The notes under the pieces are model-generated. The model searched no databases and was not told where the DNA came from. It saw only the letters and a list, made by a program, of their open reading frames with translations. The translations under genes and the position numbers were made by a program. Positions 11,839-52,475 of a stretch of 64,000 bases of DNA are shown piece by piece; positions within the stretch are counted from its first letter, which is position 1; each line of letters begins with the position of its first letter. The stretch comes from Rhodothermales bacterium (lineage in GTDB: Bacteria > Bacteroidota > Rhodothermia > Rhodothermales > Bin80), in assembly GCA_958296045.1 (NCBI GenBank), contig CATQHT010000003.1, forward strand, positions 1,499,246 through 1,563,245, read 5' to 3'.

Positions 11839-12239
11839 TGCCTGTTGGGAATAGTTAGCTGGCCCCGCGCATCCAACGAAGCTCCCCGCGATTTGTGCAT
11901 TAGGGTGCGGCGGTATGTTTGCTGAGCACCGGCAGAACGACGGTTGAATGCCGAATGCTTCGTGGCGTGTTCCATAATCAGGATTTACGTCGTAAGATCG
12001 GTATGCTCAGTGTCAGCAGGGCCGCACCGTGCGCTCGCAGGGTGTGCTCTACTTGGAAGAGGCTGTACGGAACTATCCTGCCCATGCCCGGTGCAATCGG
12101 TTCGCAAACGGCCGGTCCACCGCTACCGAGGGCGAGCGGTTTTGGGGCTCGGTGCTGGTACCTGGTTGATAAGTCGTATTATGAGCTAGTGCCCTGATCG
12201 TGTCCTGAACATTAACCACCTCTGGTGTAACGATTGATT
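11839..12239. other. Intergenic region, no gene recognised
   Basis: Four hundred bases between two divergent genes. It probably holds promoters for both the minus-strand PLP enzyme and the coiled-coil gene, but I see no consensus I would call. Open frames here have no recognisable features. Confidence 0.4.
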
Positions 12240-13046
12240 ATGGCTGAACTTGCAACAAGCGCTGTGACACAGACAGGTATAAGAGTCGATCCGAGGATAT
12301 CGGGCATCGATTCCGAGATATTGAAGATCAGGTTGGTGATCTCGGAGCTGTCAGAGAAGGCTACGAAGGCGGAAGCCGCCATCCTGGCCAAAATTGTGCA
12401 GGTTGCGGCCGAGCAGAACGCCAAGACTGACGAGTTGGAATCCAAGGTTGACGTCAATGTGGCCGAGCTGAAGGGGATGATTGGCAAGTTGGAGTCCAAA
12501 GTTGACGTCAGTGTGTCCGAGTTGAAGGGAATGGTCGGCAAGTTGGAGTCCAAAGTTGACGTCAGTGTGTCCGAGTTGAAGGGAATGGTCGGCAAGTTGG
12601 AGTCCAAAGTTGACGCTAGGTTTGAGAAGCTGGAGTCCAAGGTTGACGCTAGTACGTCCGAGTTGAAGGGGATGATCCACACACTGGAGTCCAAGGTTGA
12701 CACTAATGTGTCCGAGTTGAAAGGGATGATCCGCACACTGGAGTCCAGTGTTAACGCTAGGTTTGAGAAGCTGGAGTCCAGTGTTAACGCTAGGTTTGAG
12801 AAGCTGGAGTCCAGTGTTAACGCTAGGTTTGAGAAGCTGGAGTCCAAGGTTGACACTAGGTTTGAGAAGCTGGAGTCCAAGGTTGACGCTAGTGTGTCCG
12901 AGTTGAAGGGGATGATCCGCACGTTGGAGTCCAAAACGGAGAGCATGTTTGCCGTGCTGGAAAAGCAGAACAGGTCCCTGAAATGGTACATCGGGACCGC
13001 CGTCGGCATAGGCATCCTGTACGCAGCGCTGTTGGAGCTTACTTAA
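12240..13046 (+). CDS. Tandem-repeat coiled-coil protein with C-terminal membrane anchor
   Basis: Not assigned to a named family. The ATG at 12240 gives 268 residues. After a helical head (about 1-60) the protein is built from near-identical 18-residue units (KLESKVDVSVSELKGMVG) and 11-residue units (KLESSVNARFE), covering about 62-235. Eleven residues is a hendecad and 18 is 7+11, so a continuous coiled coil is predicted. The end (WYIGTAVGIGILYAALLEL) is one transmembrane helix, making it a tail-anchored rod. There is no signal peptide. The repeats are also near-identical in DNA, including a 54-bp unit repeated exactly at 12487-12594 and a 33-bp unit three times from 12738. It stands alone between intergenic stretches. 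Confidence 0.7.
   Translation: MAELATSAVTQTGIRVDPRISGIDSEILKIRLVISELSEKATKAEAAILAKIVQVAAEQNAKTDELESKVDVNVAELKGMIGKLESKVDVSVSELKGMVGKLESKVDVSVSELKGMVGKLESKVDARFEKLESKVDASTSELKGMIHTLESKVDTNVSELKGMIRTLESSVNARFEKLESSVNARFEKLESSVNARFEKLESKVDTRFEKLESKVDASVSELKGMIRTLESKTESMFAVLEKQNRSLKWYIGTAVGIGILYAALLELT
12487..12594 (+). repeat. 54-bp exact tandem duplication inside the coiled-coil gene
   Basis: Two back-to-back copies of a 54-base unit that encodes an 18-residue KLESKVD...SELKGMVG module. The copies appear identical base for base, showing recent duplication. Confidence 0.85.
12738..12869 (+). repeat. 33-bp tandem repeats inside the coiled-coil gene
   Basis: Three identical 33-base units (12738-12770, 12771-12803, 12804-12836) and a fourth diverged one (12837-12869), each encoding an 11-residue hendecad around LESSVNARFEK. 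Confidence 0.85.
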
Positions 13047-17124: not shown

Positions 17125-18828
17125 ATGACAGATCAAGATATCGCCAGACTCTTCTTGAGTCCCGACAACCCTCGGCAAAGGCGCTACGAGGCGCTGCGCG
17201 CCCGATTTGTAGATGGCAAACCCTGGGCCCAAATTGCTGAGCAATTCGGGCTCAATCAAGGGACCTTGCGCAATCTGGCCTGTGAACTGCGCAAAACCCA
17301 GGTTATCAGCCAGTTCGACGACCGGAACACCAAGACCCATTCTAGACGCGACGCCAGGATCATTGAGCTACGCCAAAAAGAGCAACTCTCCAATGCGGAG
17401 ATTGCCGACCGACTGAAGGCAGACAACCTTAGAGCTGGCACGACCACCATTGGCTTGGTGCTCAAGAGGGCGGGATTTCCCAGGCTTCCCCGGCGCGTGG
17501 CACGCGCGGTACCCCAAGTGTTTGGTGCGGCCGAATCCGACATCCGCCAATTCCAAATTCGCACCGACCGATGGCACACCCGGTTTGGCGGTCTGTTCTT
17601 ATTTGCCCGAGATCTGGCGAACGCAGCGCTGGACCGCGTTGTGGCCGACTGGCCCAGCAGCCAAAAAGTGCCAGCCCCCGCCATGATCCGGGCCCTCTTG
17701 GCTCTCAAACTCTGGGGTATCGGACGCCCCTACCATGTTATGCCCGACATTCTGGATCAAGGCAGCGCCTTTTTTGCCGGACTCAATGTGATGCCCAAGA
17801 AGTCCACACTCACGGAGTACAGCACACGAGTGGGTCGCCAGCATTTGCGCACCCTGATGGATGCCTGGCATAAAGTGACCCAGACGCTGCTGCCGGCGTC
17901 CGATGGCTCGTTCGATCTCGATTTCCACACCATCCCCTACCATGGCGATGAAGCCCTTATGCAGCAGCCCTTTGTCTCCAAACGTAGCCGGCGGCAGCGC
18001 GGCATACTGGCATTAGTAACCAGGGAGGCCCAGCAGCGGGTCCTCGTCTACGGCAATACTACCATTAGCAAGGCATCAAAGAACGACGCCATTTTGGAGT
18101 TCGTTGATCTCTGGGAGCAACGCGCGGGGCATCTGCCCAGAGAACTGGTCTTTAACAGTCGCTTTACCACGTACGCCAACCTCGCCGAACTGCATGCCCG
18201 TGGCATCAGTTTCTTGACGCTACGCCAGCGTGCACCTACCATCATTGATCGACTAAGCCAAAGGCCACTTAACAGCTGGAGGAAGATCCGGCTGCATAAC
18301 ATCGGGCGCAAATATGCGACGCCCCGCGTGCTGGACGATATCATCAGCCTGCGCCATTACCCGCATCCATTGCGCCAACTTGCCATCGAAGGGTTGGGCC
18401 GAGACAAACCTACGCTCTTGATCACCAATCGCATGAATGATCACCCCGCTATACTGATTGACCGCTATGCCCAACGCATGCTCATCGAAAACGCCACTGA
18501 AGATGCTATCAACTTCTTTCATATGGACGCCCTCTCCAGTACCGTGCCGTTGCGCATCGATCTGGACCTGCAACTGACGCTCATCGCGAGTACGCTGTAC
18601 CAAGGATTAGCAAAACGCTTGGGCGCCCGCTACGCGACGGCCACATGCCAGACCCTGTTCCAACGCTTCGTGAGCGCCCCAGCCCTGGTCATCACCAATG
18701 AACAACAGGTCGTTGTCCGACTCACCCGCCGAGCACACAACAACGAATTGCGCGCGGCCGGCTATGTTGGACCGCAAGGCCGAATACCCTGGATCCACGG
18801 TCGGCAACTCATCCTTGAATACAGCTGA
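17125..18828 (+). CDS. DDE-type transposase with N-terminal helix-turn-helix; second catalytic Asp replaced
   Basis: A 567-residue protein. Residues 20-110 contain two helix-turn-helix-like segments (WAQIAEQFGLNQGTLRNLA and LSNAEIADRLKADNL) and the rest is an IS4/IS1634-like RNase H fold transposase. The first catalytic Asp is in DLDFHTIPYHGDE (about 275), the Glu in RMLIENATEDAINFF (about 455). At the expected second Asp (VFDS in relatives as I remember them) the sequence reads LVFNSRFTTYANL, Asn from codon AAC. If the alignment is right, the enzyme cannot cleave DNA. The open frame is otherwise full length, so the change would be recent, or the protein has another use. Confidence 0.78.
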   Translation: MTDQDIARLFLSPDNPRQRRYEALRARFVDGKPWAQIAEQFGLNQGTLRNLACELRKTQVISQFDDRNTKTHSRRDARIIELRQKEQLSNAEIADRLKADNLRAGTTTIGLVLKRAGFPRLPRRVARAVPQVFGAAESDIRQFQIRTDRWHTRFGGLFLFARDLANAALDRVVADWPSSQKVPAPAMIRALLALKLWGIGRPYHVMPDILDQGSAFFAGLNVMPKKSTLTEYSTRVGRQHLRTLMDAWHKVTQTLLPASDGSFDLDFHTIPYHGDEALMQQPFVSKRSRRQRGILALVTREAQQRVLVYGNTTISKASKNDAILEFVDLWEQRAGHLPRELVFNSRFTTYANLAELHARGISFLTLRQRAPTIIDRLSQRPLNSWRKIRLHNIGRKYATPRVLDDIISLRHYPHPLRQLAIEGLGRDKPTLLITNRMNDHPAILIDRYAQRMLIENATEDAINFFHMDALSSTVPLRIDLDLQLTLIASTLYQGLAKRLGARYATATCQTLFQRFVSAPALVITNEQQVVVRLTRRAHNNELRAAGYVGPQGRIPWIHGRQLILEYS

Positions 18829-22578: not shown

Positions 22579-23745
22579 CTACACCACTACCCTGCGCAGC
22601 TGAGCTGGAATCCCTATCAGGATTACATGGCGGCTTGTGCCGACGAGCTTCGCGATACGTCCGATAGAGTTGTCATCTTCCGGGTTGTCGCTAATGATGG
22701 TGACACGGTCACCAACGCGAATTCCAGACACATGGCTCACATCCACCATGGTACCGTTCATACATACCTTACCCACGATGGGGCATGTGGTACGGCGCAC
22801 CTGCACGCAACCGCAGTTCGTCAGGCCGATATTCACGCCCGCGTAGTAGCCGCTTACCACCGTAGCCACCGTGAGGGCACGGGGCGCAATAAAGGTGTGG
22901 CCGTATCCTATGGCCTCCCCCGATGCCATGTGGCGCACGGACCCGATGGTAGACACCACCGAGAGTGCGGGCTTGAGCGGAAGCGCGCGGTGCGGGCTGT
23001 AATCATAGCCGTAGAGCCCGAGCCCGAGCCGGATAACGCTGGCATCCGTCCGGGACGACCAGTAGCTGCCTCCCGTACCTGCTAGGTGCAGATAAGGGGC
23101 ATCTGGAAATGCTTCTCGCACGACACGCGTCACACGGTTCCAGGCAGCCACCTGATTGTCGGCGACGCTCGTGTCCAAGGTAGCAGTCTTAGCCATGTGA
23201 GAACATGCTCCCTCCAGTACAAGGCATCGCGCCTGGCGTAGCACGCGCACAGCATCATCGAGCTGGTCCAACCCTATGCCGTACCGCCGCATGCCAGTAT
23301 CCACCTTGAGGTGAAAACGGCGGGGACGTCGCAACGTGGCCGCGAGCTCCACAAGTTGCCCGAAGTCCACCAGCCCGAAGGCTACACGCGGCATTCGGCA
23401 GCGCACGATATTCTCCGTAGCCGTGTAGCCGACTATCAGGATGGGAGTGCGGATTCCCTCGTTGCGCAGGATGAGCGCTTCGTGGTAGCTCTCCACCACC
23501 AGAAACGGTGGCTGCGCCTCCTCCAGGATCCGGGCAGTCTCGACCAGCCCGTGACTGTAGGCGTTGCTCTTGAGCACGGGCGCGATAGCCGCGGGCGCAC
23601 ACGTGCGCGCAAATGTCTCGTAGTTGTGGAGCAGCGCGGCGCGTGAGATACGCACTTCCACCAGGCGCTTGTAACGGTACCGACGGGTGCGCAGCCACCG
23701 CAATGCCGTGCGCGCACGACGAAGAGTCGATCCGCAGATTGACAT
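22579..23745 (-). CDS. alr: Alanine racemase-family PLP enzyme
   Basis: Fold-type III PLP enzyme. With ATG 23745 it has 388 residues; in-frame ATG 23826 and GTG 23832 lie upstream, the latter 3 bases before the preceding stop, so the start is uncertain. The PLP lysine is Lys59 in VLKSNAYSHG (usual form VVKANAYGHG). KVDTGMRRYGIG, GSYWSSRTDASVIRLGLGLYG and the catalytic tyrosine in VSGYYAGVNIG are present. The conserved CMD reads CMNGTMVDV (Asp to Asn). It is the last gene of a five-gene operon of oxidoreductase and hydrolase genes, so it may act on another amino acid rather than feed the cell wall. Confidence 0.82.
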   Translation of the reverse strand: MSICGSTLRRARTALRWLRTRRYRYKRLVEVRISRAALLHNYETFARTCAPAAIAPVLKSNAYSHGLVETARILEEAQPPFLVVESYHEALILRNEGIRTPILIVGYTATENIVRCRMPRVAFGLVDFGQLVELAATLRRPRRFHLKVDTGMRRYGIGLDQLDDAVRVLRQARCLVLEGACSHMAKTATLDTSVADNQVAAWNRVTRVVREAFPDAPYLHLAGTGGSYWSSRTDASVIRLGLGLYGYDYSPHRALPLKPALSVVSTIGSVRHMASGEAIGYGHTFIAPRALTVATVVSGYYAGVNIGLTNCGCVQVRRTTCPIVGKVCMNGTMVDVSHVSGIRVGDRVTIISDNPEDDNSIGRIAKLVGTSRHVILIGIPAQLRRVVV

Positions 23746-23834
23746 GCTTAGTGGTCCGGTAACACACGGCGGCACAGCCGCTACGGCAAGGCTGCCGAAT
23801 CCCGGCGCGGCACCGTAGAACGCCATAGGCACAT

Positions 23835-24761
23835 CTACATCACGCGGTCGGTGAATGCGCGATTGTGCACCGTGACCGGGACCTTCATAAGCTCCAGCAC
23901 TCCGCGTGCCACATGCTCCGACAGGCGACGAAAGGCCTCCTCACCCTTTTCCCGCGTGGCACGCAACGGGTTCCCTATGACGCCACTCTCGATAAACTCG
24001 TGGTGGTCCATAGGAAAGTTGAAGTAGTGATAGCCCTCAAACTCCACATCGGGCATGCCGTCTTTCTTTTCAAAGGATCGAGGTAAGAATTCCGGGATGT
24101 GCGCACGGGTGAATTCTGCGCGGTCCATACGCACCAGGCGTTCATTCCAGGCAAGGTCCTGCGACGTTTCCAGTTCGCTTGCATGCCAACCGGGTGTCTC
24201 ATCTGGAGGGTTCTCCATGAGTCCTTTAAGGATGCCGGTATAGCGCTCCATGTACGGCTTAACGAAGCTGATCAGCGCACCGGTTTCGTAGCGCAGCGTG
24301 CGCAGGACCGGGTCGACGACTTTGATGTTTGATCCGTGGCCGTTGATGAAGATGATTCTATTGAATCCGTGGTGGATAAGGCTGCGTGCCACATCATGCA
24401 TCACGGCGAGCAGCGTGGTGCTTCGCACGGTGATGGTGCCGCGGCCCTGACCGGGTTCATGCATGTGTTGGGGCGAATACCCCATCCAGATGGGCGGTGT
24501 GTGCAGCACCGCGATCATGTGGGCGACGCGCATCGACATATGCACGGCCGTTACGGTATCCGTGTACAGCGGCAGGTGCGGGCCATGTTGTTCCAAGCTG
24601 GCGACCGGGATCAGGATCAGGTCCTTGGTCTTGAGGTATTCCTTGACGTCTGTCATTGTAAGGTCCCCCAGATCCCAGGATAGGAACTGCTCTCTGAAAG
24701 CAGCGTCGTCGCTTGTCAGGCGCGGCAGATGGCTATAGTCGGTAGCGGTCGAGGTCATCAT
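23835..24761 (-). CDS. Creatininase-family amidohydrolase
   Basis: A 308-residue member of the creatininase superfamily (creatinine amidohydrolase, ArfB formamide hydrolase, MftE). Metal ligands are expected in VASLEQHGPHLPLYTDT (Glu, His, Asp near residues 55-71), in INGHGSN (His) and in WHASELETS (Glu), all visible. Length is longer than the usual 240-260 because of an N-terminal extension and a C-terminal region with HYFNFPMDHHEF. The start overlaps the stop of the Tm-1-like gene by four bases. Substrate unknown: the family hydrolyses C-N bonds in small cyclic or formyl amides. Confidence 0.85.
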   Translation of the reverse strand: MMTSTATDYSHLPRLTSDDAAFREQFLSWDLGDLTMTDVKEYLKTKDLILIPVASLEQHGPHLPLYTDTVTAVHMSMRVAHMIAVLHTPPIWMGYSPQHMHEPGQGRGTITVRSTTLLAVMHDVARSLIHHGFNRIIFINGHGSNIKVVDPVLRTLRYETGALISFVKPYMERYTGILKGLMENPPDETPGWHASELETSQDLAWNERLVRMDRAEFTRAHIPEFLPRSFEKKDGMPDVEFEGYHYFNFPMDHHEFIESGVIGNPLRATREKGEEAFRRLSEHVARGVLELMKVPVTVHNRAFTDRVM

Positions 24762-25972
24762 GGGTTTTCTAGAAGGGTAATCAGCAGGTCGGCGGCTTCG
24801 CGCCCAAAGACCGGGTCATTGACATGCACGACGCGCGTATGTACAGGGATGCGGGATAGCAGAGCGGCTTGGAGGCGTTCAAGAAAATGCCGGTCTGCGG
24901 CCGGATCCCAGAATGGACCTCCTGGCACATTGGGGATCGATAGGCCCTCGGTGGGCACCAGAATCTCCACAGGTCCAGTGGCGGCGTTAAGCTTTCGGGC
25001 AAAGATGTCCCCAAGCTGGCCCATCTCCTCGTGTGTGGCGCGCACGAGGACGTATTCCGGGTTATGATCGTAGCGGGGACGACTCGCTAGCCCCTCGGGG
25101 ACGGTGCCGCGGTTCCAGACGCTAAAGTCGATGCAGCCGGGCACCACGACCTGGGGGAGCCCCAACCTCCCGGCCACCTCCAGCCGTTGCGGACCGCCGT
25201 CGTGGATGCCCCCTACCAGCGGATCGTATACCTCATTGGTAGTAAAGTCGAGAATTCCGACGAACTGGCCGTCCTCTGCCAGCTCTTCCATGGCGGGTCC
25301 GCCCACGCCGTTGGAGTGAAAGATGACCGCTTCGTACCCAGCGGCCGCCAGTCGTTCCTTAGCGGCCATGACGGCCGTAGTCGTGTTGCCAAGCATTGTT
25401 ACGGCCACGTACCGCCCGCGGGGCGGATGCAGCACATGTCCGTGCTCTACCATGCCTTTCAATGCTGCGGCCACATTGTCAAAAACGGTACACGCGACCG
25501 GGTTCAGGCCCAGTATGTCGACCACCGAATGGACCACCATCATGTCACGTGTCCCGACGAGGGGACCAAAGTAGTGGGCTCCCGAGGCGATCGGTGACAC
25601 CAGCACTTTGGGAACTCCGACGGGCAGCACCATCATGGCGGCGGCCCCCATCACGGCGCCCTCCGCGCCGCCCATGCTGACCATGGCCTGCAGCCGACCA
25701 TCGGCCAGGAGCTGGCGCGTCAGCACCTGTAGTGCGTCGCGCATCTTCGCGACAGCCCGCCCGCGGCTGCCAGCACTGCGTATCGCGTCGATGGTAGTAC
25801 CGCCCACTTCTGCCACGGTAGCGTGGTCGATGTCGGGTACTATGTCGAGCGGCTCACCCAGGATGCCGGAGTCTACCACCAGGGTATCAAGCCCCAGCGC
25901 CTGTAGGCGGTCCCGCAGGTAGCGGATTTCTGGGCCCTTGGTGTCGAGCGTTCCGACGATAACAACAGCCAT
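24758..25972 (-). CDS. Tm-1-like ATP-binding protein (UPF0261)
   Basis: A 404-residue protein of the UPF0261/Tm-1 N-terminal family, named after the tomato protein that blocks tobamovirus replication. The opening VVIVGTLDTKGPEIRYLRDR is the family hallmark, followed by DSGILGEP, SMGGAEGAVMGAAAMMVLP and GYEAVIFHSNGVGGPAMEEL. In bacteria it usually sits next to a PEP-hydrolase-like TIM barrel, which is absent here; the neighbours are a creatininase-like hydrolase (4-base overlap) and an Fe-S protein (6-base gap). The family binds ATP, but its reaction in bacteria is not established. Confidence 0.9.
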   Translation of the reverse strand: MAVVIVGTLDTKGPEIRYLRDRLQALGLDTLVVDSGILGEPLDIVPDIDHATVAEVGGTTIDAIRSAGSRGRAVAKMRDALQVLTRQLLADGRLQAMVSMGGAEGAVMGAAAMMVLPVGVPKVLVSPIASGAHYFGPLVGTRDMMVVHSVVDILGLNPVACTVFDNVAAALKGMVEHGHVLHPPRGRYVAVTMLGNTTTAVMAAKERLAAAGYEAVIFHSNGVGGPAMEELAEDGQFVGILDFTTNEVYDPLVGGIHDGGPQRLEVAGRLGLPQVVVPGCIDFSVWNRGTVPEGLASRPRYDHNPEYVLVRATHEEMGQLGDIFARKLNAATGPVEILVPTEGLSIPNVPGGPFWDPAADRHFLERLQAALLSRIPVHTRVVHVNDPVFGREAADLLITLLENP

Positions 25973-25978
25973 GGTGCG

Positions 25979-27064
25979 TTACGGGCGTATTAGGGCCGCA
26001 AGGGCTTCGAACAGCCCCTGCACTTTGAGACCATAATCTGGGGCAAATCGTGTCAGCTGGACCAGGGTTGCCGGATCTTCGCAAAGCACGCTGCCGGCCC
26101 CTGTAGCCTTTGCGTCCTCCAGGCGTGCGCGCGTGAGCGCCTCGGCGATGTCTGGGCGCGTAAACTGCACCGCAGTGCTCCCTACGGGGTGCGCGCGTTC
26201 GCGGCGCCAGAAGAGCTCGCGCGGGGCTTGCCCGAGGACGGTGGTAGCGAGCGAACGAATCGGATTAAAGCGCTCCGATGCACGCACAGCGTGCGTAGGA
26301 TCCACGTAGGCAGCGTCTCCAGCTCCTGCGCGTAGCTGCAGCGTGCCATCCTGGATTCGGCGCGCCAAGAAGGTGGCAAAATCTGTGAGCACGATATCCG
26401 CGGGCCATATGACCCCCAGCCGCTCCGGCCCCATCTGCCTGAATGTGAACAGGTCCGCTGGTGACAGCACCAGCAGCTGCGTGACCGAAGCATCCCGGGC
26501 CTCTTCGACACAGGCACGGAAATTCTTGCGGGCGGTCGCCGGGAATCCTATGGAGCATGCCAGGTACCCATTGCTGGCGCCAGCGCCGACCAGCGCGGCA
26601 GAGGTGCTGCAGGCTTCGAGCAGCAGGCGCGCGGCTGTGATGGACTCGGGCCAAAGGTTGTGTGCCTCGTCGCCTGCAAAGAGCGCCAATTCGCTAGTGT
26701 GCGTGTGAGTCTGGTGCACTCGTTCGCCAAAGGCGGATCCGGTGCGTAGCAGACGGTGGTGCAGACGCACGACAGTGTCTGGAGCCAGTCCTCGCGCAGC
26801 TATCTCGGCCCGCACTGCGGCGATGGCCGCTGGAAGGCGCTGATCGGTGACGCAGTGAGCCCGGCAAAGACCAGCGTCTGGCTCCGCGTAGAGTACGCGC
26901 AGCGTAGAGGTGTTCCACTTGAGCAGTCCCCTGCGCTGTGAAGCCACCATGAGCGCAATGCCATGTGGCGTAAGCGTTTCGTTGCTCGTGATATGCCCAA
27001 CCGGCGCCACATGCCGGCACATAAGGCAGTAGCGGCAGTTGCTTATAGCTTCCTGGCTCATCAC
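25979..27064 (-). CDS. Fe-S oxidoreductase subunit (GlpC/heterodisulfide-reductase-like)
   Basis: A 361-residue protein with one N-terminal iron-sulfur motif, CRYCLMCRHVAPVG (residues 10-23), and further cysteines in GLCRAHCV near 66. The two middle regions (VGAGASNGYLACSIGFPATA and VTQLLVLSPADLFTF) resemble the CCG-type domains of GlpC/LutA-like subunits but I do not see the canonical CCG pairs. It overlaps the FAD oxidase by four bases (27061-27064). The pair is best read as a two-subunit dehydrogenase in which this protein carries electrons from the flavin. A quinone or ferredoxin acceptor is not shown by the sequence. Confidence 0.68.
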   Translation of the reverse strand: MMSQEAISNCRYCLMCRHVAPVGHITSNETLTPHGIALMVASQRRGLLKWNTSTLRVLYAEPDAGLCRAHCVTDQRLPAAIAAVRAEIAARGLAPDTVVRLHHRLLRTGSAFGERVHQTHTHTSELALFAGDEAHNLWPESITAARLLLEACSTSAALVGAGASNGYLACSIGFPATARKNFRACVEEARDASVTQLLVLSPADLFTFRQMGPERLGVIWPADIVLTDFATFLARRIQDGTLQLRAGAGDAAYVDPTHAVRASERFNPIRSLATTVLGQAPRELFWRRERAHPVGSTAVQFTRPDIAEALTRARLEDAKATGAGSVLCEDPATLVQLTRFAPDYGLKVQGLFEALAALIRP

Positions 27065-28596
27065 AGTCCGAATCCGACCTTACCTGGATTCATGATCCCA
27101 TTCGGGTCGAGGGCTTTCTTGATGCGCTCTAGAAGCGGCCATGCGTCCCCGTATTGGCGGCGCATGAACCGAGAGAGCTTAAGGCCCACGCCGTGGTGCT
27201 CGTTCACCATGCCACCATTCTCCAGCACCGCGGTCATGGCCACGTTCCAGACGCGGTTGTGCAGTCGCACGGCTTCGTGCGGATCTTCTGGAGGGTTCTT
27301 GATGATGAAGCGTGTATAGACCATGACGCCCCAGTGAAACCAGTGTGAAAAGTGGCCGATGAAGTCGATATCCCAATCCTGAAAGGACTCTTCCACAGCG
27401 CGCTTCTCTGCATAGTAGAGCTTCTCGATCTTATCGTACGTGGTGATGGTTTCTGTTGTCCCGTACATCCAGGGAAGCTTCAGGCTCTGTGGTGGATAGT
27501 AAAAGTCATACCGGTGTTTCCACCATGACTCTCCGGGCTCGCGTCCGAGATCTTTGGCCCCGAAGTGGCCGATAATTTCCATGGCCTTCCTTTCCTGGAG
27601 CGATGCTAGGTCGCGATCGCCATCAAATCCGATCACCATATAGGCGCCTTCCAGTTCGTAGCCAAGGATTTTACGCACCCTTGACGCTGTGGAGCGAGGG
27701 TCATAGAGGCGGATCACGAAGGGCTCCAGTCGCCTTGTCATAATCTGGCGGCCGGCCTCGAGGGCTTCGCTGAGGTTATCAAAGAGCACCGCTCGTAGTA
27801 GGCGCACCTCCGGCAGGTAGTCCAGCTGCATCGTGGCTTCGGTGATGACTCCGAAGGTGCCTTCTGAGCCCAGAAACAGGCGGTAGAAATCCGGGCCTGC
27901 GGCGTGCTGAGGCACGATCGGAGTGCGCAGGATGTGTCCGTCTGGGAGGACGACTTGCATCCGCAGCACCAGATCCTCCGCTTTGCCGTACTTGGTGCTG
28001 ATGGTACCGGTTCCTCGGGGCGCAAGGTAGCCGCCCAGGGTGGCGCAGTTGGCCGAAGCCGGATAGTGAGGGAGCATCAGGCCACGTTCATTGATGGCCC
28101 ATTCCAGCTGCGTGCCGTTGATGCCGGCTTGGGCCGTCACCGTCAGTGACCGCTCATCTATCTCGATGATGCGGTTCATCCTCTTGGTGTCCAGGATAAT
28201 GCCGCCGAAGGTGCTGAGGGCACCTCCCTGGGATCCAGAACCGCCTCCCCAGGGGATGACGGGGATCCTGTACGTATTGGCGATCTGCAGCACCTTCGAA
28301 ACCTGTTCCGCGCTGTTTGGCCTGACGATAAAGTCAGGCTTCTTTGGTGTCTTACCCCGGTCCAGCCACATCTGTGGTAGCCAGAACCAGTCGGTGGCAT
28401 AGACCAGCAGGTCAGTGTCGTCGGTCGAAAGGTGCGGAGTGCCAACGACCTCCTCTAGCTCACTGCGAATCATCTCGGCCTGCAGGCCTTGCATGGCATC
28501 CTCATTGTACCCTTGGGCGGGCGCATCGACGCGATTGGCGCGATGTTCTGTATAATACGGCTTATAGACCAGCTGCTCAATGCTTGCCACCACCAT
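27061..28596 (-). CDS. FAD-binding oxidoreductase (GlcD/alkyl-DHAP synthase-like)
   Basis: A VAO/PCMH-type flavoenzyme. ATG 28596 gives 511 residues; the frame extends to 28704. The PP-loop for FAD is at IPVIPWGGGSGSQGGALS (about 114-131), with PHYPASANCATLGGYLAPRG and LFLGSEGTFGVITEATM further on. The C-terminal NEHHGVGLKLSRFM and LDPNGIMNPGKVGFGL are typical of glycolate/D-lactate dehydrogenases and alkyldihydroxyacetone-phosphate synthases. A 2-hydroxy acid or alcohol substrate is inferred. It heads the operon, and its start codon overlaps on the opposite strand with a start codon of the ThuA gene (CATG at 28594-28597). Confidence 0.85.
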   Translation of the reverse strand: MVVASIEQLVYKPYYTEHRANRVDAPAQGYNEDAMQGLQAEMIRSELEEVVGTPHLSTDDTDLLVYATDWFWLPQMWLDRGKTPKKPDFIVRPNSAEQVSKVLQIANTYRIPVIPWGGGSGSQGGALSTFGGIILDTKRMNRIIEIDERSLTVTAQAGINGTQLEWAINERGLMLPHYPASANCATLGGYLAPRGTGTISTKYGKAEDLVLRMQVVLPDGHILRTPIVPQHAAGPDFYRLFLGSEGTFGVITEATMQLDYLPEVRLLRAVLFDNLSEALEAGRQIMTRRLEPFVIRLYDPRSTASRVRKILGYELEGAYMVIGFDGDRDLASLQERKAMEIIGHFGAKDLGREPGESWWKHRYDFYYPPQSLKLPWMYGTTETITTYDKIEKLYYAEKRAVEESFQDWDIDFIGHFSHWFHWGVMVYTRFIIKNPPEDPHEAVRLHNRVWNVAMTAVLENGGMVNEHHGVGLKLSRFMRRQYGDAWPLLERIKKALDPNGIMNPGKVGFGL

Positions 28597-29473
28597 GGGA
28601 TCCTTCCTGTTGCTATTTCTATTCGCATCTGCGCCAGCGGCGAGTCCGAAGGTGCTGCTCATTTCTGGCCAGAACAACCATGACTGGGAGCGAACGACGC
28701 CCATGCTTCAGTCCATCCTGGAGTCCACCGGCCGTTTTGAGGTCACCGTGTCACTTACGCCTGCCCGGGGTTCTGATGTGGCTGCATGGGATGCCTGGCG
28801 CCCTGACTTCAGCGCGTATAACGTAGTACTGTTGGACTATAATGGCGAGATGTGGCCTGAGATCGTCAGAGATGACTTTGAGGCATTTGTAGCTGGTGGT
28901 GGGGCCGTGCTGGTGCAACACGCGTCCAACAACCCGTTTGCTGGGTGGGAAGCGTACGAACGGATGGTGGGTCTTCTCTGGCGCCGAGCGGACGCCGGTT
29001 ACAGCGCCTACATGGACAGCGCGGGAACGCTGGTGCGGGTGGCACCCGGCGAAGGACATGGGGCTGGGCACGGGAGCTTGCACGACTGGCAGATCATGAC
29101 GCAGGACGCGGAGCACCCCGTCATGAAGGGGCTGCCGAGTATTTGGGCACATCCATTTGACGAGTTATACCACAGCCAGCGCGGTCCAGCGGAAGAGATG
29201 CATGTTTTGGCCACAGCCTGGTCGAATCCGGAGCATGGAGGCACGGGTAAGCACGAACTTGTGGTCTGGTGGATACCCTTTGGCGAAGGCAAGGTCCTCA
29301 CGCTATTGCCAGGTCACCTGTGGGCTGGTCAGGAGGATGACCGGGCGTGGAGATGCGCCGGGTTCCAGACGCTTGTGCAACGCGGCGTGGAGTGGCTGGC
29401 CACGGGCAACGTAGCCATGTCAGTGCCGGAAGATTTTCCAGCGGCTAACACTTTCAGCATTCGCGACTGGTAA
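28580..29473 (+). CDS. Exported ThuA-domain protein
   Basis: A 297-residue ThuA-like protein (class I glutamine-amidotransferase-like fold, named after trehalose utilisation). A signal peptide follows the start (MGSFLLLFLFASAPAASP). Typical segments are VLLISGQNNHDWERTTPMLQ, VVLLDYNGEMWPEIVRDDFE, GGGAVLVQHASNNPF and the late LPGHLWAGQEDDRAWRCAGF. Two starts are possible, ATG 28580 and ATG 28595; the latter places the signal peptide at the very N-terminus and exactly overlaps the divergent FAD oxidase start. ThuA proteins occur in sugar-oxidation gene sets of Planctomycetes and Bacteroidota; the reaction is not known. Confidence 0.83.
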   Translation: MLATTMGSFLLLFLFASAPAASPKVLLISGQNNHDWERTTPMLQSILESTGRFEVTVSLTPARGSDVAAWDAWRPDFSAYNVVLLDYNGEMWPEIVRDDFEAFVAGGGAVLVQHASNNPFAGWEAYERMVGLLWRRADAGYSAYMDSAGTLVRVAPGEGHGAGHGSLHDWQIMTQDAEHPVMKGLPSIWAHPFDELYHSQRGPAEEMHVLATAWSNPEHGGTGKHELVVWWIPFGEGKVLTLLPGHLWAGQEDDRAWRCAGFQTLVQRGVEWLATGNVAMSVPEDFPAANTFSIRDW

Positions 29474-34866: not shown

Positions 34867-36279
34867 ATGCGCTTCCCATCAATATTATTGGCACTTCTCT
34901 GTGTCACCGCGTGTCAACCGACCGAGCGATCCGCAGAGCCGCTCAATGTCGTAGTGCTGTATACGGACGACCAGCGCCACAATACGATCGCGGCACTAGG
35001 CAACGACGTAATTGTCACGCCCAACATGGACCGCCTCGTTCGCGAAGGTATCGCCTTTACGCACGCTCACACAATGGGCGGAATGCATGGAGCGCTTTGC
35101 GTACCCAGCCGCGCAATGCTCATGACCGGACGGCCGCTCTTCAGCCTCTTGGGAAGTGGCAACTCCATCCCACCGGATCATACCATGATGCCAGAGCTGT
35201 TCAGAGAGGCGGGCTATGCTACCTTTGCTACAGGCAAGTGGCACAACGATCGCGCATCGTTTGCGCGCGCATTTGGAGGAGCGGGCCATGTGTTTTTCGG
35301 GGGCATGCACGGGCCCGGCGAAGGCGGACATGAAGCACCGCTGCTGAATGCCTTCGATTCAACCGGCACGTACGCGCAAGAGGATCGACGCCAGGTTCCT
35401 GGCTTTTCTAGCACACTGTATGCTGACGCGGCCATCGACTTTTTGCATAGGCCGCATAACGACCCCTTCTTCTTGTACGTGTCATTCACTTCGCCGCACG
35501 ACCCGCGTACGCCCCCAACGCCTTTCGATCAGTGGTATGATGCCGGCTCCATGACGCTTCCACCGAATTACACGCCGGAGCATCCCTTCGATAATGGGGA
35601 GCTGCGTGTTCGCGACGAAATGCTGCGAGATCATCCGCGCACCGAGCAGATTGCCAGAGAAGAGCTGGCGACCTACTATGGCATGATCAGCGAGGTGGAT
35701 GCGCAGATTGGCCGTATTCTGGATGCACTCGACGCGTTGGATCTGCGGCGCCGGACGCTCGTGGTCTTCGCTGGTGACAACGGCCTAGCGGTGGGCAGCC
35801 ATGGACTACTCGGCAAACAGAATCTGTATGAGCACAGCATGCGCGTTCCGTTAGCGTTTGCTGGACCAGGCGTCCCGCACAATGAGCTGCGTGACGGTCT
35901 AGTATATATCCATGACATCTTTCCGACTGTGGCCGCCCTTGCAGGTCTGGAGGCACCGCCAACGGTGGAAGGTCACAGCCTGATCCCCTTCATAGAGAAC
36001 GCTGCCGCGCCCGCCCGTGACGCGGTCTTTTATGCCTACCGGGATCTTCAAAGAGGTGTTCGGACAAACGACAACTGGAAGCTTATTCAGTACCAGGTGG
36101 AGGGCAAGAGAACCGACCAGCTGTTTGACCTCAGCAGCGATCCGTACGAGATTCGCAACTTGGCGGACGACCCGTCATATGCCGACCGGCTCGAAGCCAT
36201 GGAGGCAAAATTAAAGCAGATCAGCCTCGACTTTGATGATCCGCTGAACCTGACGCTAAGCGACTGGGGCAAGAACTGA
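34867..36279 (+). CDS. Arylsulfatase-family lipoprotein
   Basis: A 470-residue type I sulfatase. The signal sequence ends in a lipobox (LLCVTAC, Cys16), so it should be lipid-anchored. Calcium ligands Asp34-Asp35 are in LYTDDQRH. The formylglycine precursor is Cys78 in CVPSRAMLMTGR, the Cys-type motif that needs an anaerobic- or FGE-type maturase not found in this window. FATGKWHND, TSPHDPRTPP and FAGDNGLAVGSHGLLGKQNL are the other active-site regions. Sequence near YAYRDLQRGVRTNDNWKLI is the usual C-terminal subdomain. Substrate is unknown; a sulfated polysaccharide fits with the second sulfatase at the right edge and the uronate genes. Confidence 0.93.
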   Translation: MRFPSILLALLCVTACQPTERSAEPLNVVVLYTDDQRHNTIAALGNDVIVTPNMDRLVREGIAFTHAHTMGGMHGALCVPSRAMLMTGRPLFSLLGSGNSIPPDHTMMPELFREAGYATFATGKWHNDRASFARAFGGAGHVFFGGMHGPGEGGHEAPLLNAFDSTGTYAQEDRRQVPGFSSTLYADAAIDFLHRPHNDPFFLYVSFTSPHDPRTPPTPFDQWYDAGSMTLPPNYTPEHPFDNGELRVRDEMLRDHPRTEQIAREELATYYGMISEVDAQIGRILDALDALDLRRRTLVVFAGDNGLAVGSHGLLGKQNLYEHSMRVPLAFAGPGVPHNELRDGLVYIHDIFPTVAALAGLEAPPTVEGHSLIPFIENAAAPARDAVFYAYRDLQRGVRTNDNWKLIQYQVEGKRTDQLFDLSSDPYEIRNLADDPSYADRLEAMEAKLKQISLDFDDPLNLTLSDWGKN

Positions 36280-43290: not shown

Positions 43291-44866
43291 ATGGCAACCC
43301 ATCGTATTCCCATGAAGAGAGTTAGGCGCATTTTGGTGCTTTACTTTGAGCGATCCTACTCTGAGCGCCGCATCCCTCAGCATGTAGGAGTTGGTCGTCG
43401 TACGGTATCTCGCACGCTTTCGCGGTTGAAGCTGTCGGGATTGACCTGGGCGCAGTGCAAGGAGTTGAGCGATATCGATCTGGAGAACAAGCTTCACGGC
43501 TCGTCTGCGCCGCAGCGCGCCACGGCTCGTCCATTACCGGACTGGGATAAGGTTCACCGGCAGCGGCTGGAGTTCTCGTATTTGACGCTGCGAATGCTAT
43601 GGCTCGAGTACAAGGAGGAGCATCCGAATGGCTTGGAGTACAGTCAGTTCTGCAAGCGATATGGTGACTGGCGCAGGAGCGATCCGAGCGTGGACATGCG
43701 CCTGGAGCATCGGGCGGGCGACAAGCTTTTCATAGACTACTCGGGCAAGCGGCCGTCGCTTATTGACCCGTCAACGGGCAAGGCGCGCGAGGTGGAGCTA
43801 TTCGTAGCAGCGCTGGGCGCTTCGCATTACGTCTATGCGGAGGCCACGCTGACGCAGAAGCAGAAGGATGTGTGTATGTCGCTTCGCCGCTGCCTGGAGG
43901 CGTTAGGGGGGGCGCATGGTGGTGCCCGACAACATGACGACGGCCGTAGCCCGCGTGCACCGGGGCGACGTACCGAAGATCAACGCCAAATTTCAGGAGC
44001 TGGCCGACCATTACGACTGTGCTGTGGTGCCTGCTCGTCCACGACATCCAAAGGACAAAGCTATCGCCGAGAAGTCGATTCAGCTTGTTCAGAGGCAGAT
44101 CTTAGCACGGCTTCGGCATGAGCGCTTTCTGAGTCTTGCCGATCTTAACATCGCCATACAACGCTTGTTGGTGGATCTCAATGCCCGGCCCTTCCAGAAG
44201 AAGAAGGGCAGCCGTCAGAGCTGGTTTGAAGAGGTGGACAAGCCGGCCCTGCGTCCGTTACCGCCAACGCCCTATCGTTATTCGGAATGGACTAGCAAGC
44301 GGAAGGTGCAGACCAATTATCATGTGGCGATCCAAAACGCCTACTACAGCGTGCCCTATAAGTACGCTGGACGCACGGTGTACGCGCTGGTGGGCGAGAA
44401 TACGGTTCAGATCTTCCTTGATAAGGAGGATGATATGGCTATTGCCTCGCATCCCCGCTCCCCCTGGAAAGGGGATTACGTGACGATAGAGGACCACATG
44501 GCCTCTCAGCACCGCGCGTACAGCTCTTGGACACCGGAGCGATTCATACGCTGGGCCGCCACATTCGGGCCCAACATGCAGACGCTTATTGAAGCGAACT
44601 TCGGCCGTTTCCGCATCCCCGAGCAGTGCTACGTGCGTTGCAGAAGCCTGCTGAACCTAGCTAAGAAGCATGGCGCACCAGTCATGGAGCAGGCCGCTGA
44701 GGAGGCGCTCGAGCGCGGAAGGCTCAGCTATCCCGCGGTCAAAGAAATCATTAACCAGCTTGTTCGCAAACGCGGCACCAAGCAGCACCGCACCGTGGAT
44801 CACGACAACATTCGCGGCGCCACCTATTACGGCTCCGCATCAACCCAAGGAGGAGACCCATGTTAA
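43291..44866 (+). pseudogene. istA: IS21 transposase istA, split by a +1 frameshift in a G run
   Basis: First part 43291-43912 codes for the N-terminal HTH (SERRIPQHVGVGRRTVSRTL) and the first catalytic Asp (LFIDYSGK). The frame is lost in a run of seven Gs at 43906-43912. With six Gs the frame continues as ALGGRMVVPDN into the second part (43916-44866), which holds the second Asp (PDN) and the Glu (KDKAIAEKSIQLV). All three catalytic residues survive, so one extra G is the only visible defect. It could be mutation, a sequencing indel or a site of slippage. The stop overlaps istB by seven bases. Confidence 0.85.
44847..44853 (+). promoter_or_regulatory. Shine-Dalgarno sequence of istB
   Basis: AAGGAGG six bases before ATG 44860. 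It is notable because host genes in this window mostly lack such a site, so the element brings its own translation signal. Confidence 0.75.
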
Positions 44867-45618
44867 TCCATCCCATCGTAGCTAAGCTTGAACACATGCG
44901 CCTGGTGGGCATGGCCAGCGCTTTGCGAGATCAGCTCGTGACCCCAGATATGGCCGAGTTCGACTTTGAGGAACGCCTGGGACTGATGGTCGATGCAGAG
45001 ATGGCACGGCGCGAATCACGTCGCTTGAATCTGAGACTCGGGCACGCTAAGCTAAGGTGTCAAGCAAGTATGGCCGACGTCGACTACGGAAAGGGGCGTG
45101 GCCTCAGCAAACGACTCATGCTGCATCTGGCCAGCTGTCAGTGGATTCAGCGGCATGACAATGTCATCATTACCGGCGCGACAGGCACGGGCAAGACCTA
45201 CTTAGCCTGTGCGCTGGCTCATAAGACATGCCTGGAAAACTACCGGGCACAATACCACCGCCTTTCGCGACTCTTGCAGGATATGCACCTCGGGCGCGCC
45301 GATGATACCGATCGGAAACTCCTGCGTAAGATGTCAAAGGTCGATGTATTGATCACCGACGACTGGGGTACCGGCGAAGTGAACGTCACGCAACAACGCT
45401 ACCTCTTGGAGCTGTTCGACGACCGATACTGGAGTCGGTCCACCATCGCGACCAGCCAAGTCCCCGTGGAACAATGGCACGACACCATGGAAGATCCTAC
45501 CTTGGCCGATGCCATCCTTGACCGACTGGTTCACAATGCACACCACATCTCACTCAAGGGTGAATCCATGCACAAAACACACGCCCTGCGGAGCATCAAA
45601 CCCTACGACCAGGCATGA
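44860..45618 (+). CDS. istB: IS21 helper ATPase IstB
   Basis: A 252-residue AAA+ protein that remodels target DNA for IstA. Walker A is ITGATGTGKTYLACALAH (about 105-122), Walker B VDVLITDDWG (about 160-169), and sensor I IATSQVPVEQWHD (about 197-209). The C-terminal ADAILDRLVHNAHHISLKGES is typical. Intact and with a strong ribosome-binding site, overlapping istA by seven bases. It is clearly different from the decayed copy at 33125. Confidence 0.93.
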   Translation: MLIHPIVAKLEHMRLVGMASALRDQLVTPDMAEFDFEERLGLMVDAEMARRESRRLNLRLGHAKLRCQASMADVDYGKGRGLSKRLMLHLASCQWIQRHDNVIITGATGTGKTYLACALAHKTCLENYRAQYHRLSRLLQDMHLGRADDTDRKLLRKMSKVDVLITDDWGTGEVNVTQQRYLLELFDDRYWSRSTIATSQVPVEQWHDTMEDPTLADAILDRLVHNAHHISLKGESMHKTHALRSIKPYDQA

Positions 45619-45671
45619 CACATATACATGTGTGCAAAGGCCGATTTCGTGCCCCTGACGCAAGACGTAGG

Positions 45672-45718
45672 GTGGCGCGCTTGAAGCCGGAATTGGTGGT
45701 GCAGTGGATCGGAATAGG
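45672..45718 (+). repeat. IS21 right-end subterminal repeats
   Basis: Two units (TTGAAGCCGGAATTGG and AGTGGATCGGAAT) that match the reverse complement of the left-end block, marking the right end of the IS21 element. Confidence 0.55.
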
Positions 45719-47023
45719 CAACTAGCAAAAACGATGGGAAAGCCCGTAACCACGGTTCCTAACCGAGACTTAGCTGCTGTAAGGGGATATTGGCGATTCA
45801 TCGAGAAGGCCGATAGGTTCGGTATCACACCTGCAAAGATACTGGCGCCGCACCGGCAGCGGACCATTGAGCGGATGCGCACCCAGAAAACGGTGCTGTG
45901 CGTGCAGGATGGTACAGACATTAGTTACAGCACACGTCCGCAGTGCGACGGATTGGAAGTAATCGGTAGTAACCAAACCAAGGCACAGGCGCGCAGCGTA
46001 CATCTGCACGCGACCCTGGCTTTGAACGACGAGGGATTGCCCTTGGGAGTATTACGGTGTTCGTACAGAAAAGAGGAAGGGCAAACCACGACGCATCAGT
46101 GGATTGACGGGCTTCGCGACATAGATGAGGCTGCACAGACGCTGCCGCGCAAGACGCGCGTGCTTAGCGTGATGGACCGGGAAGCGGATGCATTCGAGAT
46201 CTTTGCGGCACAGCGCACTTTGAAGCGGACCGATGTGCTGATTCGGGCCAAACACGATCGGAATCTGGGTAAGAACCATGATCGCCTGTTTAAAGCCATG
46301 CGCCGTGGACCTGCTGCCGGTGTGCTGGAGCTCTTGGTAGAGCGTCTGAGTCTTCGGGCGAAGTCTGGTCGGATCACGCACAAGGGCCGTCCGAAGCGTA
46401 ATGCACGCATGGAGGTGCGTTTTCGCCAAGTGAGGCTGCCAGCAACAGGCGGGTCTGCCGAAGATCCCATGAAGGTCTCCGCGGTCCACGTTCGTGAGAT
46501 AGCACCGCCCAAAGGTGCAGATCGGATTGAGTGGTTTCTGCTAACCACCGTGGAGGTTACCTCACTACAGGAGGCAGAGCAGATACTGGAATACTACACC
46601 CTGCGCTGGCGCGTGGAGGACACCTTTCGGGTACTCAAGACGGGTTGCCGCGTCGAAAAGCTGCGCATGCAGCAGGCAGAGAACCTGCACCGAGCAATAA
46701 CGCTGCATATCGTCACGTCCTGGCGGATCATGCTCATGACGCTGTTGGGGCGTGTGACTGCCAACATGGACGCGGAAGTGATTTTCACGGACGCGGAGAT
46801 GCATATGTTGCGGGTCTATGCCCGCAATTACGACCTTCCCGAACTTAAGGACCTCACCTCGGGAATTATGTTGATGGCAATGATGGGCGGCTACATGAAC
46901 CGAAAGCACGACCCGCCGCCTGGGCACGAAATCATGTGGCGTGGGTACGCAAGTCTGCAGATGCGCGCCATAGCCTACAAAGAACTCAGGATTTACGACC
47001 TTGTGGAGCGCCCGCCACCATAG
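45704..47023 (+). pseudogene. Tn5-like IS4-family transposase, 5' end cut by IS21
   Basis: The 439-codon frame from GTG 45704 keeps all three catalytic residues of a Tn5/IS50-type enzyme: Asp in CVQDGTDISY (about 69), Asp in SVMDREADAFE (about 160) and Glu in LRWRVEDTFRVLK (about 306). The first few codons lie in the IS21 right end, and the N-terminal DNA-binding part found in Tn5 relatives is shortened by roughly 20 residues or more. A promoterless, truncated enzyme is likely inactive, although it could be expressed from IS21. The rest of its IS is not seen upstream of the IS21 left end. Confidence 0.8.
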
Positions 47024-51824: not shown

Positions 51825-52475
51825 GTGAACAAGACTGCCGCCGTCGCGCACATCGAAGCGGCCAAAGCCGTGGCGGTCATCCGGCTGACATCGGGCCAGC
51901 GGGTAGTGCCGGTCACCGAGGCCCTCCTCAAAGGCGACGTGACGGTGATAGAAGTCACGTTGACCACGCCCAGAGCTCTGGCGGCCGTGGAAATGCTCGT
52001 ACGCAAACTCTCGCCGCCAGCGCTGGTCGGAGTAGGATCCGTGTTGCATGCTGGCGATGTGGCTCTGGCCGCAGACTGCGGGGCACGGTTCATCGTCAGT
52101 CCTATAACAACGCAGGCCATGATCGAATGTGCCCAAAAGCGGGGGATGATCGTGATGGCGGGAGCGTTTACTCCGACCGAGGCGCACCGTGCGCAGACGC
52201 TCGGAGCGGACTTCGTAAAGGTGTTCCCTGCGGGTTTCTGGGGTCCCAAGTATCTGGGTACGTTACTGGCTCCCATGCCGCACCTGCGACTTTGCCCCAC
52301 GGGCGGCGTCACGCCGGAAAACGCTGGAGACTGGATCAAGGCAGGCGCGGTGGCGGTTGGGGTGGGTAGTGCACTCGTGGACCAGAAGGCCGTCCGCCAG
52401 GGCCGCTATGACGAACTGACGCGTCGCGCTCGCATCTTGGTTAATTCCGTCGCATCAGCACGCGATGAGCTATGA
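51825..52475 (+). CDS. eda: 2-dehydro-3-deoxy-phosphogluconate aldolase
   Basis: Cleaves KDPG to pyruvate and glyceraldehyde 3-phosphate. GTG start, 216 residues. The Schiff-base lysine is Lys132 in ADFVKVFPAG and the catalytic Glu43 is in VIEVTLTTPR; VGVGSVLHAGDV (68-79) and CPTGGVTPENAGDW bind the phosphate. The stop overlaps the start of the sugar kinase by four bases (ATGA, 52472-52475), a classic KDG kinase-aldolase pair. It feeds uronic-acid or Entner-Doudoroff carbon into glycolysis. Confidence 0.94.
   Translation: MNKTAAVAHIEAAKAVAVIRLTSGQRVVPVTEALLKGDVTVIEVTLTTPRALAAVEMLVRKLSPPALVGVGSVLHAGDVALAADCGARFIVSPITTQAMIECAQKRGMIVMAGAFTPTEAHRAQTLGADFVKVFPAGFWGPKYLGTLLAPMPHLRLCPTGGVTPENAGDWIKAGAVAVGVGSALVDQKAVRQGRYDELTRRARILVNSVASARDEL

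Follow-up and report, generated by a model that had tools for sequence, protein, structure and literature searches.

The 64,000-nucleotide stretch of Rhodothermales bacterium DNA analysed here (GenBank assembly GCA_958296045.1, contig CATQHT010000003.1; the whole stretch is called the window) carries five consecutive minus-strand open reading frames (ORFs) at 22579..28596. An initial annotation, made from the sequence alone, assigned them to named families and read them as a compact five-gene operon of unknown pathway; the five ORFs are indeed present, with the families named. As is argued below, four of the genes, referred to as FAD, FES, UPF0261 and CRE, form a conserved block, but the fifth, an alanine racemase gene, is not a conserved member of it. 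Every part of the block comes from a known family or superfamily. The genes of the locus, and two that lie beyond it, are as follows.

27061..28494, minus strand: FAD, a VAO-type flavoprotein (FAD_binding_4 and FAD-oxidase_C domains), likely a dehydrogenase subunit; the frame is open up to 28704.
25979..27061, minus strand: FES, a small Fe-S subunit with one presumably intact [4Fe-4S] site (C9, C12, C15, C70) and a C-terminal half that is CCG-repeat-like without conserved cysteines.
24758..25972, minus strand: UPF0261 (Tm-1-like), with N and C domains, of a creatininase-paired clade (Pfam, PDB matches and tree).
23835..24761, minus strand: CRE, a creatininase-superfamily metallohydrolase (PF02633, 5.8e-59).
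22579..23745, minus strand: alanine racemase, likely housekeeping, outside the conserved block; the frame is open up to 23832.
28580..29473, plus strand: ThuA-family gene, divergent from the operon (PF06283, 9.4e-21).
34867..36279, plus strand: sulfatase (PF00884, 3.7e-47).

The tight packing claimed for the first four genes was borne out by measurement. FAD and FES overlap by 1 base (with an ATG start) or 4 bases (with a GTG start), 6 bases separate FES from UPF0261, and the CRE start codon lies over the UPF0261 stop in a 4-base overlap (ATGA). FAD probably starts at about 28494 and not at 28596, because the proteins of most relatives begin near the aligned MQGLQAEMIRSEL; with this start the distance to the divergent ThuA gene is about 100 bp or less. 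The racemase, too, probably starts near 23745, since its first ~29 residues are not conserved among relatives, and the gap between it and CRE would therefore be about 90 bp rather than 2. The racemase is the next ORF downstream of CRE in this genome, as had been stated.

To what extent the genes stay together elsewhere was judged from a scan of a genome collection with FES as the query, which returned 31 loci; FES is thus present in all 31 by construction. FAD lies beside FES in every one of them (the contig start cuts FAD in L021, L022, L027 and L028, and it is irregular in L014); UPF0261 follows FES in 27 and CRE is present in 25. Five of the six loci that are short of UPF0261 or CRE are explained by contig ends: L023, L025 and L032, which lack UPF0261, end inside FES or within ~1.1 kb after it, and the contigs of L022 and L028 end inside UPF0261. 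CRE is split across two frames in L006 and is found ahead of UPF0261 in L029. UPF0261 and CRE are no more than 0.6 kb apart, ORF to ORF, in 25/25 loci, and in 14 of these the two frames share 4 bases. The 31 loci span five phyla, Rhodothermota, Deinococcota, Chloroflexota, Poribacteria and Balneolota, with the labels Rhodothermales, Trueperaceae, Chloroflexota (Anaerolineae, Caldilineae, Herpetosiphonaceae), Poribacteria and Balneolaceae. The grouping proposed in the initial annotation of a two-subunit redox enzyme with UPF0261 and a creatininase-like hydrolase is thus supported, and it is conserved in other genomes well beyond chance. No description of this gene set was found in literature searches of open-licence PubMed Central papers, in agreement with the initial annotation, which knew of no described pathway with this set.

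The distribution of the block is patchy, which would suit lateral transfer. In the phylum the block is rare: a search of 198 genomes with FES gave five matches, two of them full-length (this genome and one of the same family); the other three, at E 3e-6 to 5e-4 over ~100 N-terminal residues only, are weak and were not taken as homologues. In the family it is nearly general, CRE having been found in 14 of 15 genomes (the 13 others are 84-92% identical, one being a 71-residue end piece), and no CRE match above 31% identity was found in 10 genomes from other families of the same order. Many of the same-family genomes are also among the 31 loci, so the counts of the two sets are neither independent nor additive. 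A plasmid-borne FES was also considered and was rejected, there being no match among 72,556 plasmid records.

The racemase shows no such conservation. It is found in 0/31 loci (where CRE is present, 1.0-5.9 kb is visible beyond the block); of the five genes it is the four-gene block alone that recurs together. Across the 15 genomes of the same family a racemase orthologue is present in seven and CRE in 14; CRE occurs without the racemase in eight, the racemase without CRE in one, and both in six. Within these six the racemase adjoins CRE in this genome only, and it was found beside CRE in 0/14 scanned same-family regions. In G199, another of the six, both genes are on one strand with 8.6 kb between them, and the racemase has the FG-GAP neighbour seen here on its far side; the remaining four are draft genomes in which the two genes are on different contigs. 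The window's racemase passes the TIGR00492 equivalog cut-off (233.4 against 168 bits) and is the only PF00842 (Ala_racemase_C) match in this genome. Its role as a pathway gene was rejected on these grounds: it is the sole Alr match here, it is in none of the 31 loci, and it is absent from eight of the 14 family genomes with CRE. It is likely to be an ordinary cell-wall enzyme that was moved near the block by rearrangement.

Transposase-like genes are present in the window at 17125-18828, 43291-47023 and 62198-63208 (DDE types and OrfB_IS605 by Pfam), and the region is therefore one open to rearrangement; an IstA/IstB-like pair among them was judged from the look of the sequence only, 43291-44121 being without a Pfam match. 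Separately, the eight family genomes without an Ala_racemase_C match (G200, G201, G167, G204, G206, G208, G209 and G210) include seven of 95-99% estimated completeness, which raises the question of how their D-alanine is made.

The genes that surround the block are of a sugar type. In Chloroflexota the neighbours include a xylose isomerase and a xylulokinase (XylA and XylB are over the cut-off in L016), a PfkB kinase and a Gfo/Idh/MocA dehydrogenase, for which the best name, levoglucosan dehydrogenase, is below the cut-off, as well as sugar isomerases, a DeoC-type aldolase, a cupin, a GntR regulator and a molybdenum hydroxylase. A LarA gene is a neighbour in 3/31 loci. In the same family the neighbours include a sugar ABC transporter and a sulfatase. 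ThuA adjoins the operon in 12/31 loci, 11 apparently from this Rhodothermota family and one labelled Rhodothermaceae; the sulfatase lies 5.4 kb beyond ThuA here, and its orthologue is 1.1-1.2 kb beyond ThuA in 3/14 same-family regions scanned (L102, L105 and L106, 65-66% identical to the window copy). A sulfonated substrate was considered and set aside, as a TauE exporter follows CRE in one Chloroflexota locus (L017) only, which is too little to argue from.

These observations bear directly on the idea, put forward in the initial annotation, that a nitrogen-containing ring is oxidised and opened and that the racemase handles an amino-acid product. The creatininase fold of CRE and the racemase ORF directly downstream in this genome would fit such a route. 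Nevertheless it now appears very improbable: besides the behaviour of the racemase described above, the genes that recur around the block, which encode a xylose isomerase, a xylulokinase, a PfkB kinase, a Gfo/Idh/MocA dehydrogenase, a ketose epimerase and LarA, are sugar genes, and nothing recurrent pointing to nitrogen-ring catabolism was seen among the neighbours scanned.

The redox pair is unusual in its Fe-S subunit. FAD matches PF01565 (2.2e-41) and PF02913 (1.5e-28), and its closest solved structures are alkyl-DHAP synthase (2uuu, 1.3e-58) and D-lactate dehydrogenase (8jdc, 1.5e-41). For FES, Pfam has no match at E<0.1; a profile search with it finds the CCG-type iron-sulfur reductase 9ojn (E 1.2e-9), the match spanning the repeats. 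The window's FES was aligned with those of 29 of the 31 loci (the incomplete L025 and L032 were omitted), and C9, C12, C15 and C70 are invariant in 30/30 sequences. C19, C60 and C63 are cysteine in the same 12 sequences; the other 18, with the window's FES among them, have cysteine at none of these positions. From the ferredoxin pattern, the four invariant cysteines presumably bind one [4Fe-4S] cluster, and C19, C60 and C63 together with C66 a second. We infer that 18 of the 30 sequences keep one site only, and that the cysteines of the second apparently disappeared together within one part of the tree; a single change accounts for the split on the unrooted FES tree (branch 99/96), and loss rather than gain is suggested because the two-cluster pattern is the usual one. 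FES of L015 and L016 has exactly four cysteines, the invariant ones. After residue 70 no cysteine is invariant in the 30 sequences and no column is above 17/30, the cysteines of the CCG domain not being conserved; in eight metagenomic members that were read, single cysteine remnants are seen in H(P/A)CGN and EDPGC.

The pair is therefore like GlcD-GlcF and related pairs in having a FAD_binding_4/FAD-oxidase_C flavoprotein beside a CCG-superfamily Fe-S subunit, but unlike them FES is short, lacks conserved CCG cysteines and, in 18/30 sequences, would have one [4Fe-4S] site. It is possible, if somewhat unlikely, that FAD and FES oxidise a sugar acid (an aldonate or other 2-hydroxy acid), that CRE hydrolyses a lactone or an amide and UPF0261 phosphorylates a sugar acid, and that no ring C-C bond is cleaved. 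The matches of FAD to GlcD (188 bits) and to D-lactate dehydrogenase are consistent with this, as are the CCG-family partner and the nickel racemase LarA beside three of the 31 loci; so is a class II aldolase encoded in a Thermus cluster described below, which matches 3-oxo-tetronate 4-phosphate decarboxylase (109 bits), an enzyme that normally acts after a sugar-acid kinase. However, FAD is far below the curated GlcD cut-off (188.2 against 567.9 bits) and closer to alkyl-DHAP synthase, the CCG cysteines are missing as a conserved feature, and the epimerase and Gfo/Idh/MocA neighbours suit keto sugars.

The creatininase fold of CRE does not in itself imply an amide substrate, since the NCBIfam family IolN, of the same superfamily, is named for a diketo-inositol hydrolase. 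The NCBIfam scores of CRE are 117.1 bits for creatininase (TIGR04448), 100.5 for IolN and 98.3 for MftE, all under the cut-off, that for creatininase being 235. In Pseudomonas creatininase the metal-binding positions are E34, H36, D45, H120 and E122. CRE keeps four of these as E57, H59, D68 and H142, corresponding to E34, H36, D45 and H120; in the CRE alignment (17 sequences: 15 of the 25 loci, plus Thermus) the D68 position is Y in L016. An inositol route, IolM-IolN-IolO, was reportedly described in Thermotoga maritima by Rodionova and colleagues in 2013, a study cited in PMC3750489. The set studied here resembles these proteins (NF041097, NF041098 and NF041099) in combining a creatininase-fold hydrolase with a dehydrogenase and, in part of the loci as set out below, a D-tagatose 3-epimerase-type epimerase, and two block-associated parts have their top named match, or one of the top ones, among them. 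Unlike them, every part here is below its family cut-off, the dehydrogenase is of the FAD/Fe-S and not the Zn-type (there is no IolM in the block), and UPF0261 is an extra part.

A related arrangement is found on Thermus plasmids (T. thermophilus NZ_AP024930.1 and T. brockianus AP031327.1), which carry the closest plasmid CRE, 47% identical, directly before a UPF0261 gene (40% identical) and then a class II aldolase. Genes for a GntR regulator, a Zn-dehydrogenase matching IolM at 225.2 bits and a sugar isomerase are divergent. The 109 bits of the aldolase as 3-oxo-tetronate 4-phosphate decarboxylase compare with a cut-off of 250, and two other family names score slightly higher. The cluster thus shares with the block the adjacent CRE and UPF0261 in the company of a sugar isomerase and a dehydrogenase, but the Zn-dehydrogenase replaces FAD and FES, and the aldolase and a tripartite tricarboxylate transporter are added; CRE and UPF0261 therefore stay paired while the type of redox enzyme changes.

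UPF0261 has both Pfam domains of its family, PF06792 (2.9e-47, 161.4 bits) and PF23189 (9.8e-66, 221.6 bits; cut-off 27), and matches the structures 9mpy (2.3e-56) and Tm-1, 3wry (1.8e-55). A passage of PMC5028733 places the family in bacteria, archaea, fungi and plants and in the tomato virus-resistance protein Tm-1, and reports that UPF0261 and the TIM-barrel family PF09370 (TBST) co-occur, co-evolve and are inferred to interact. On the plasmids examined, from Rubrobacter, Haloterrigena and Thermomicrobium, the two genes are neighbours or have a single gene between them. The earlier remark that UPF0261 is here without this usual partner was correct: no PF09370 gene is adjacent, and one as an adjacent partner was rejected, the sole PF09370 match in the genome being on another contig (C2). 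The protein is of the same family as in the UPF0261 and PF09370 pair, with both domains, but here a creatininase-like hydrolase replaces PF09370, and the tree places it in a separate clade. The window protein is 68-82% identical to 21 aligned block members (of 27) and 36-43% identical to seven others (the alignment omits the near copies L010, L011, L018 and L031 and the incomplete L022 and L028). In the tree of 29 rows the six that are not paired with CRE lie on one side of a branch supported 95/96 and the 22 block rows form their own group (99/95), the Thermus row being a long branch of unsure placement.

It may be that UPF0261 catalyses no step itself and instead assists or activates, in an ATP-dependent way, the catalytic subunit that accompanies it, CRE here and PF09370 elsewhere. 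The co-evolution and inferred interaction with PF09370, as given in the same passage of PMC5028733, and the closeness of the UPF0261 and CRE genes (the ATGA overlap here, with the spacing found across the 25 loci) speak for this. The many polar residues that are invariant in the 29 proteins of both pairings, D10, K12, E15, K122, H219, E229, D242, E247, D282 and N304, suit a shared catalytic site instead, and such a partner role is considered quite unlikely. No paper giving UPF0261 a biochemical role was found in the literature searches.

A second UPF0261 gene of this genome (L001), one of the six rows without CRE, is adjacent to genes for a cupin and a ThuA-DUF7133 protein, not to PF09370. This gene (G000 C3:1807359-1812480, in L038) and the sole PF09370 gene (C2:338983-343257, in L042) are on different contigs, and each is beside a cupin gene and a large DUF7133/ThuA protein, an arrangement suggestive of a single operon that was copied and then broken up.

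A likelier fifth member of the set than the racemase would be a TIM barrel of the ketose-epimerase type (cluster c4). Its gene is directly after FES in 13/31 loci, convergent and at most 0.9 kb from CRE in four, and farther off in two, which gives 19/31 in total and 17/31 beside the block. By Pfam it is xylose-isomerase-like, and among proteins of solved structure D-tagatose 3-epimerases come closest to it; TM_0416 was matched as well. The L016 copy scores 136.9 bits with IolO and 114.4 bits with D-psicose-3-epimerase in NCBIfam, both below the cut-off, and IolO is also the best NCBIfam match of this genome's TIM barrel (123.8 bits), which is 80% identical to the L013 copy. The operon to which the gene belongs in this genome also encodes an SDR dehydrogenase, a permease, a two-domain sugar ABC ATPase and a periplasmic binding protein of the sugar type. 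The TIM barrel was found in 15/15 family genomes searched.

A second, stop-bearing CRE-like copy with ~58-65% identity was seen in two family genomes, at G000 C3:1452013-1452895 (outside the window) and G209 C26:9863-10518; the latter adjoins a TIM-barrel epimerase gene.

What was observed is the order of the genes and its conservation, their families, the metal and cluster residues that are kept, the sugar genes nearby and the absence of the racemase from the conserved set. On this footing the block and the TIM barrel may tentatively be read as encoding the breakdown of a compound that resembles a cyclitol or a sugar, although this is a possibility that falls short of being probable; the substrate, the order of the reactions, the electron acceptor and every reaction are predictions from gene content. 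The first keto group would be introduced by a dehydrogenase of the Gfo/Idh/MocA or SDR type, its gene being close by or at another site. Oxidation of a second carbinol would fall to the FAD/[4Fe-4S] pair, the electrons passing via the one remaining cluster towards the respiratory chain. CRE would then cleave the dicarbonyl ring hydrolytically to an open-chain keto acid, as the name of IolN implies, and the TIM barrel would epimerise the keto acid. UPF0261 would carry out an ATP-dependent step, most simply a phosphorylation, before aldol cleavage.

Several points weigh against this cyclitol or sugar route. CRE misses the IolN equivalog cut-off (100.5 against 245 bits) and scores higher as creatininase than as IolN, and at the position of creatininase Glu122 it has Ser144. 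The TIM barrels, at 123.8 (own) and 136.9 bits (L016), likewise miss the equivalog cut-off of IolO (300). The Thermus Zn-dehydrogenase is below the IolM cut-off (225.2 against 450) and higher as threonine dehydrogenase (244.8), and the Thermus sugar isomerase matches IolO at 26.9 bits only. Neither an aldolase nor a kinase lies inside the window's block, and the ATP-dependent role given to UPF0261 is drawn from its family name and gene partners. In L014 an irregular FAD is followed by FES and the TIM barrel, with no UPF0261 or CRE within 8 kb downstream. Furthermore, the TIM barrel of this genome is ~1 Mb from the block; the gene is not tied to the block alone, since it also occurs without CRE in G198, of the same family, and without a close CRE in G179 (same order, other family; 68% identical). 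The wider claim, that a patchily spread pathway of at least five phyla uses a one-cluster FAD/Fe-S enzyme to make a dicarbonyl ring, CRE to open it by C-C hydrolysis and UPF0261 as an ATP-dependent sugar-acid enzyme, must at present be called unlikely.

Two other features of the window may be recorded. At 51825-53506 there are genes for a KDPG/KHG aldolase and a PfkB kinase with a 4-base overlap, which likely act as a pair on a 2-keto-3-deoxy sugar acid; a ROK-family gene of the opposite strand comes next. At 12234-13046 there is a coiled-coil ORF of LESKVD repeats, opposite which the other strand is also open over a long stretch.

The block is a small, defined set of proteins for assay, and the concerted loss in FES, within one part of the tree, of one [4Fe-4S] site out of two would be a clean experiment of nature on how electron transfer is wired. 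The function of a protein such as UPF0261 is best approached through its conserved partners, and the further association found here, in which a metallohydrolase and a flavoprotein join it among sugar genes, points to carbohydrate chemistry. If true, the proposed route would give UPF0261, a widespread family, a metabolic job, and it is the UPF0261 step that would be of wider interest.

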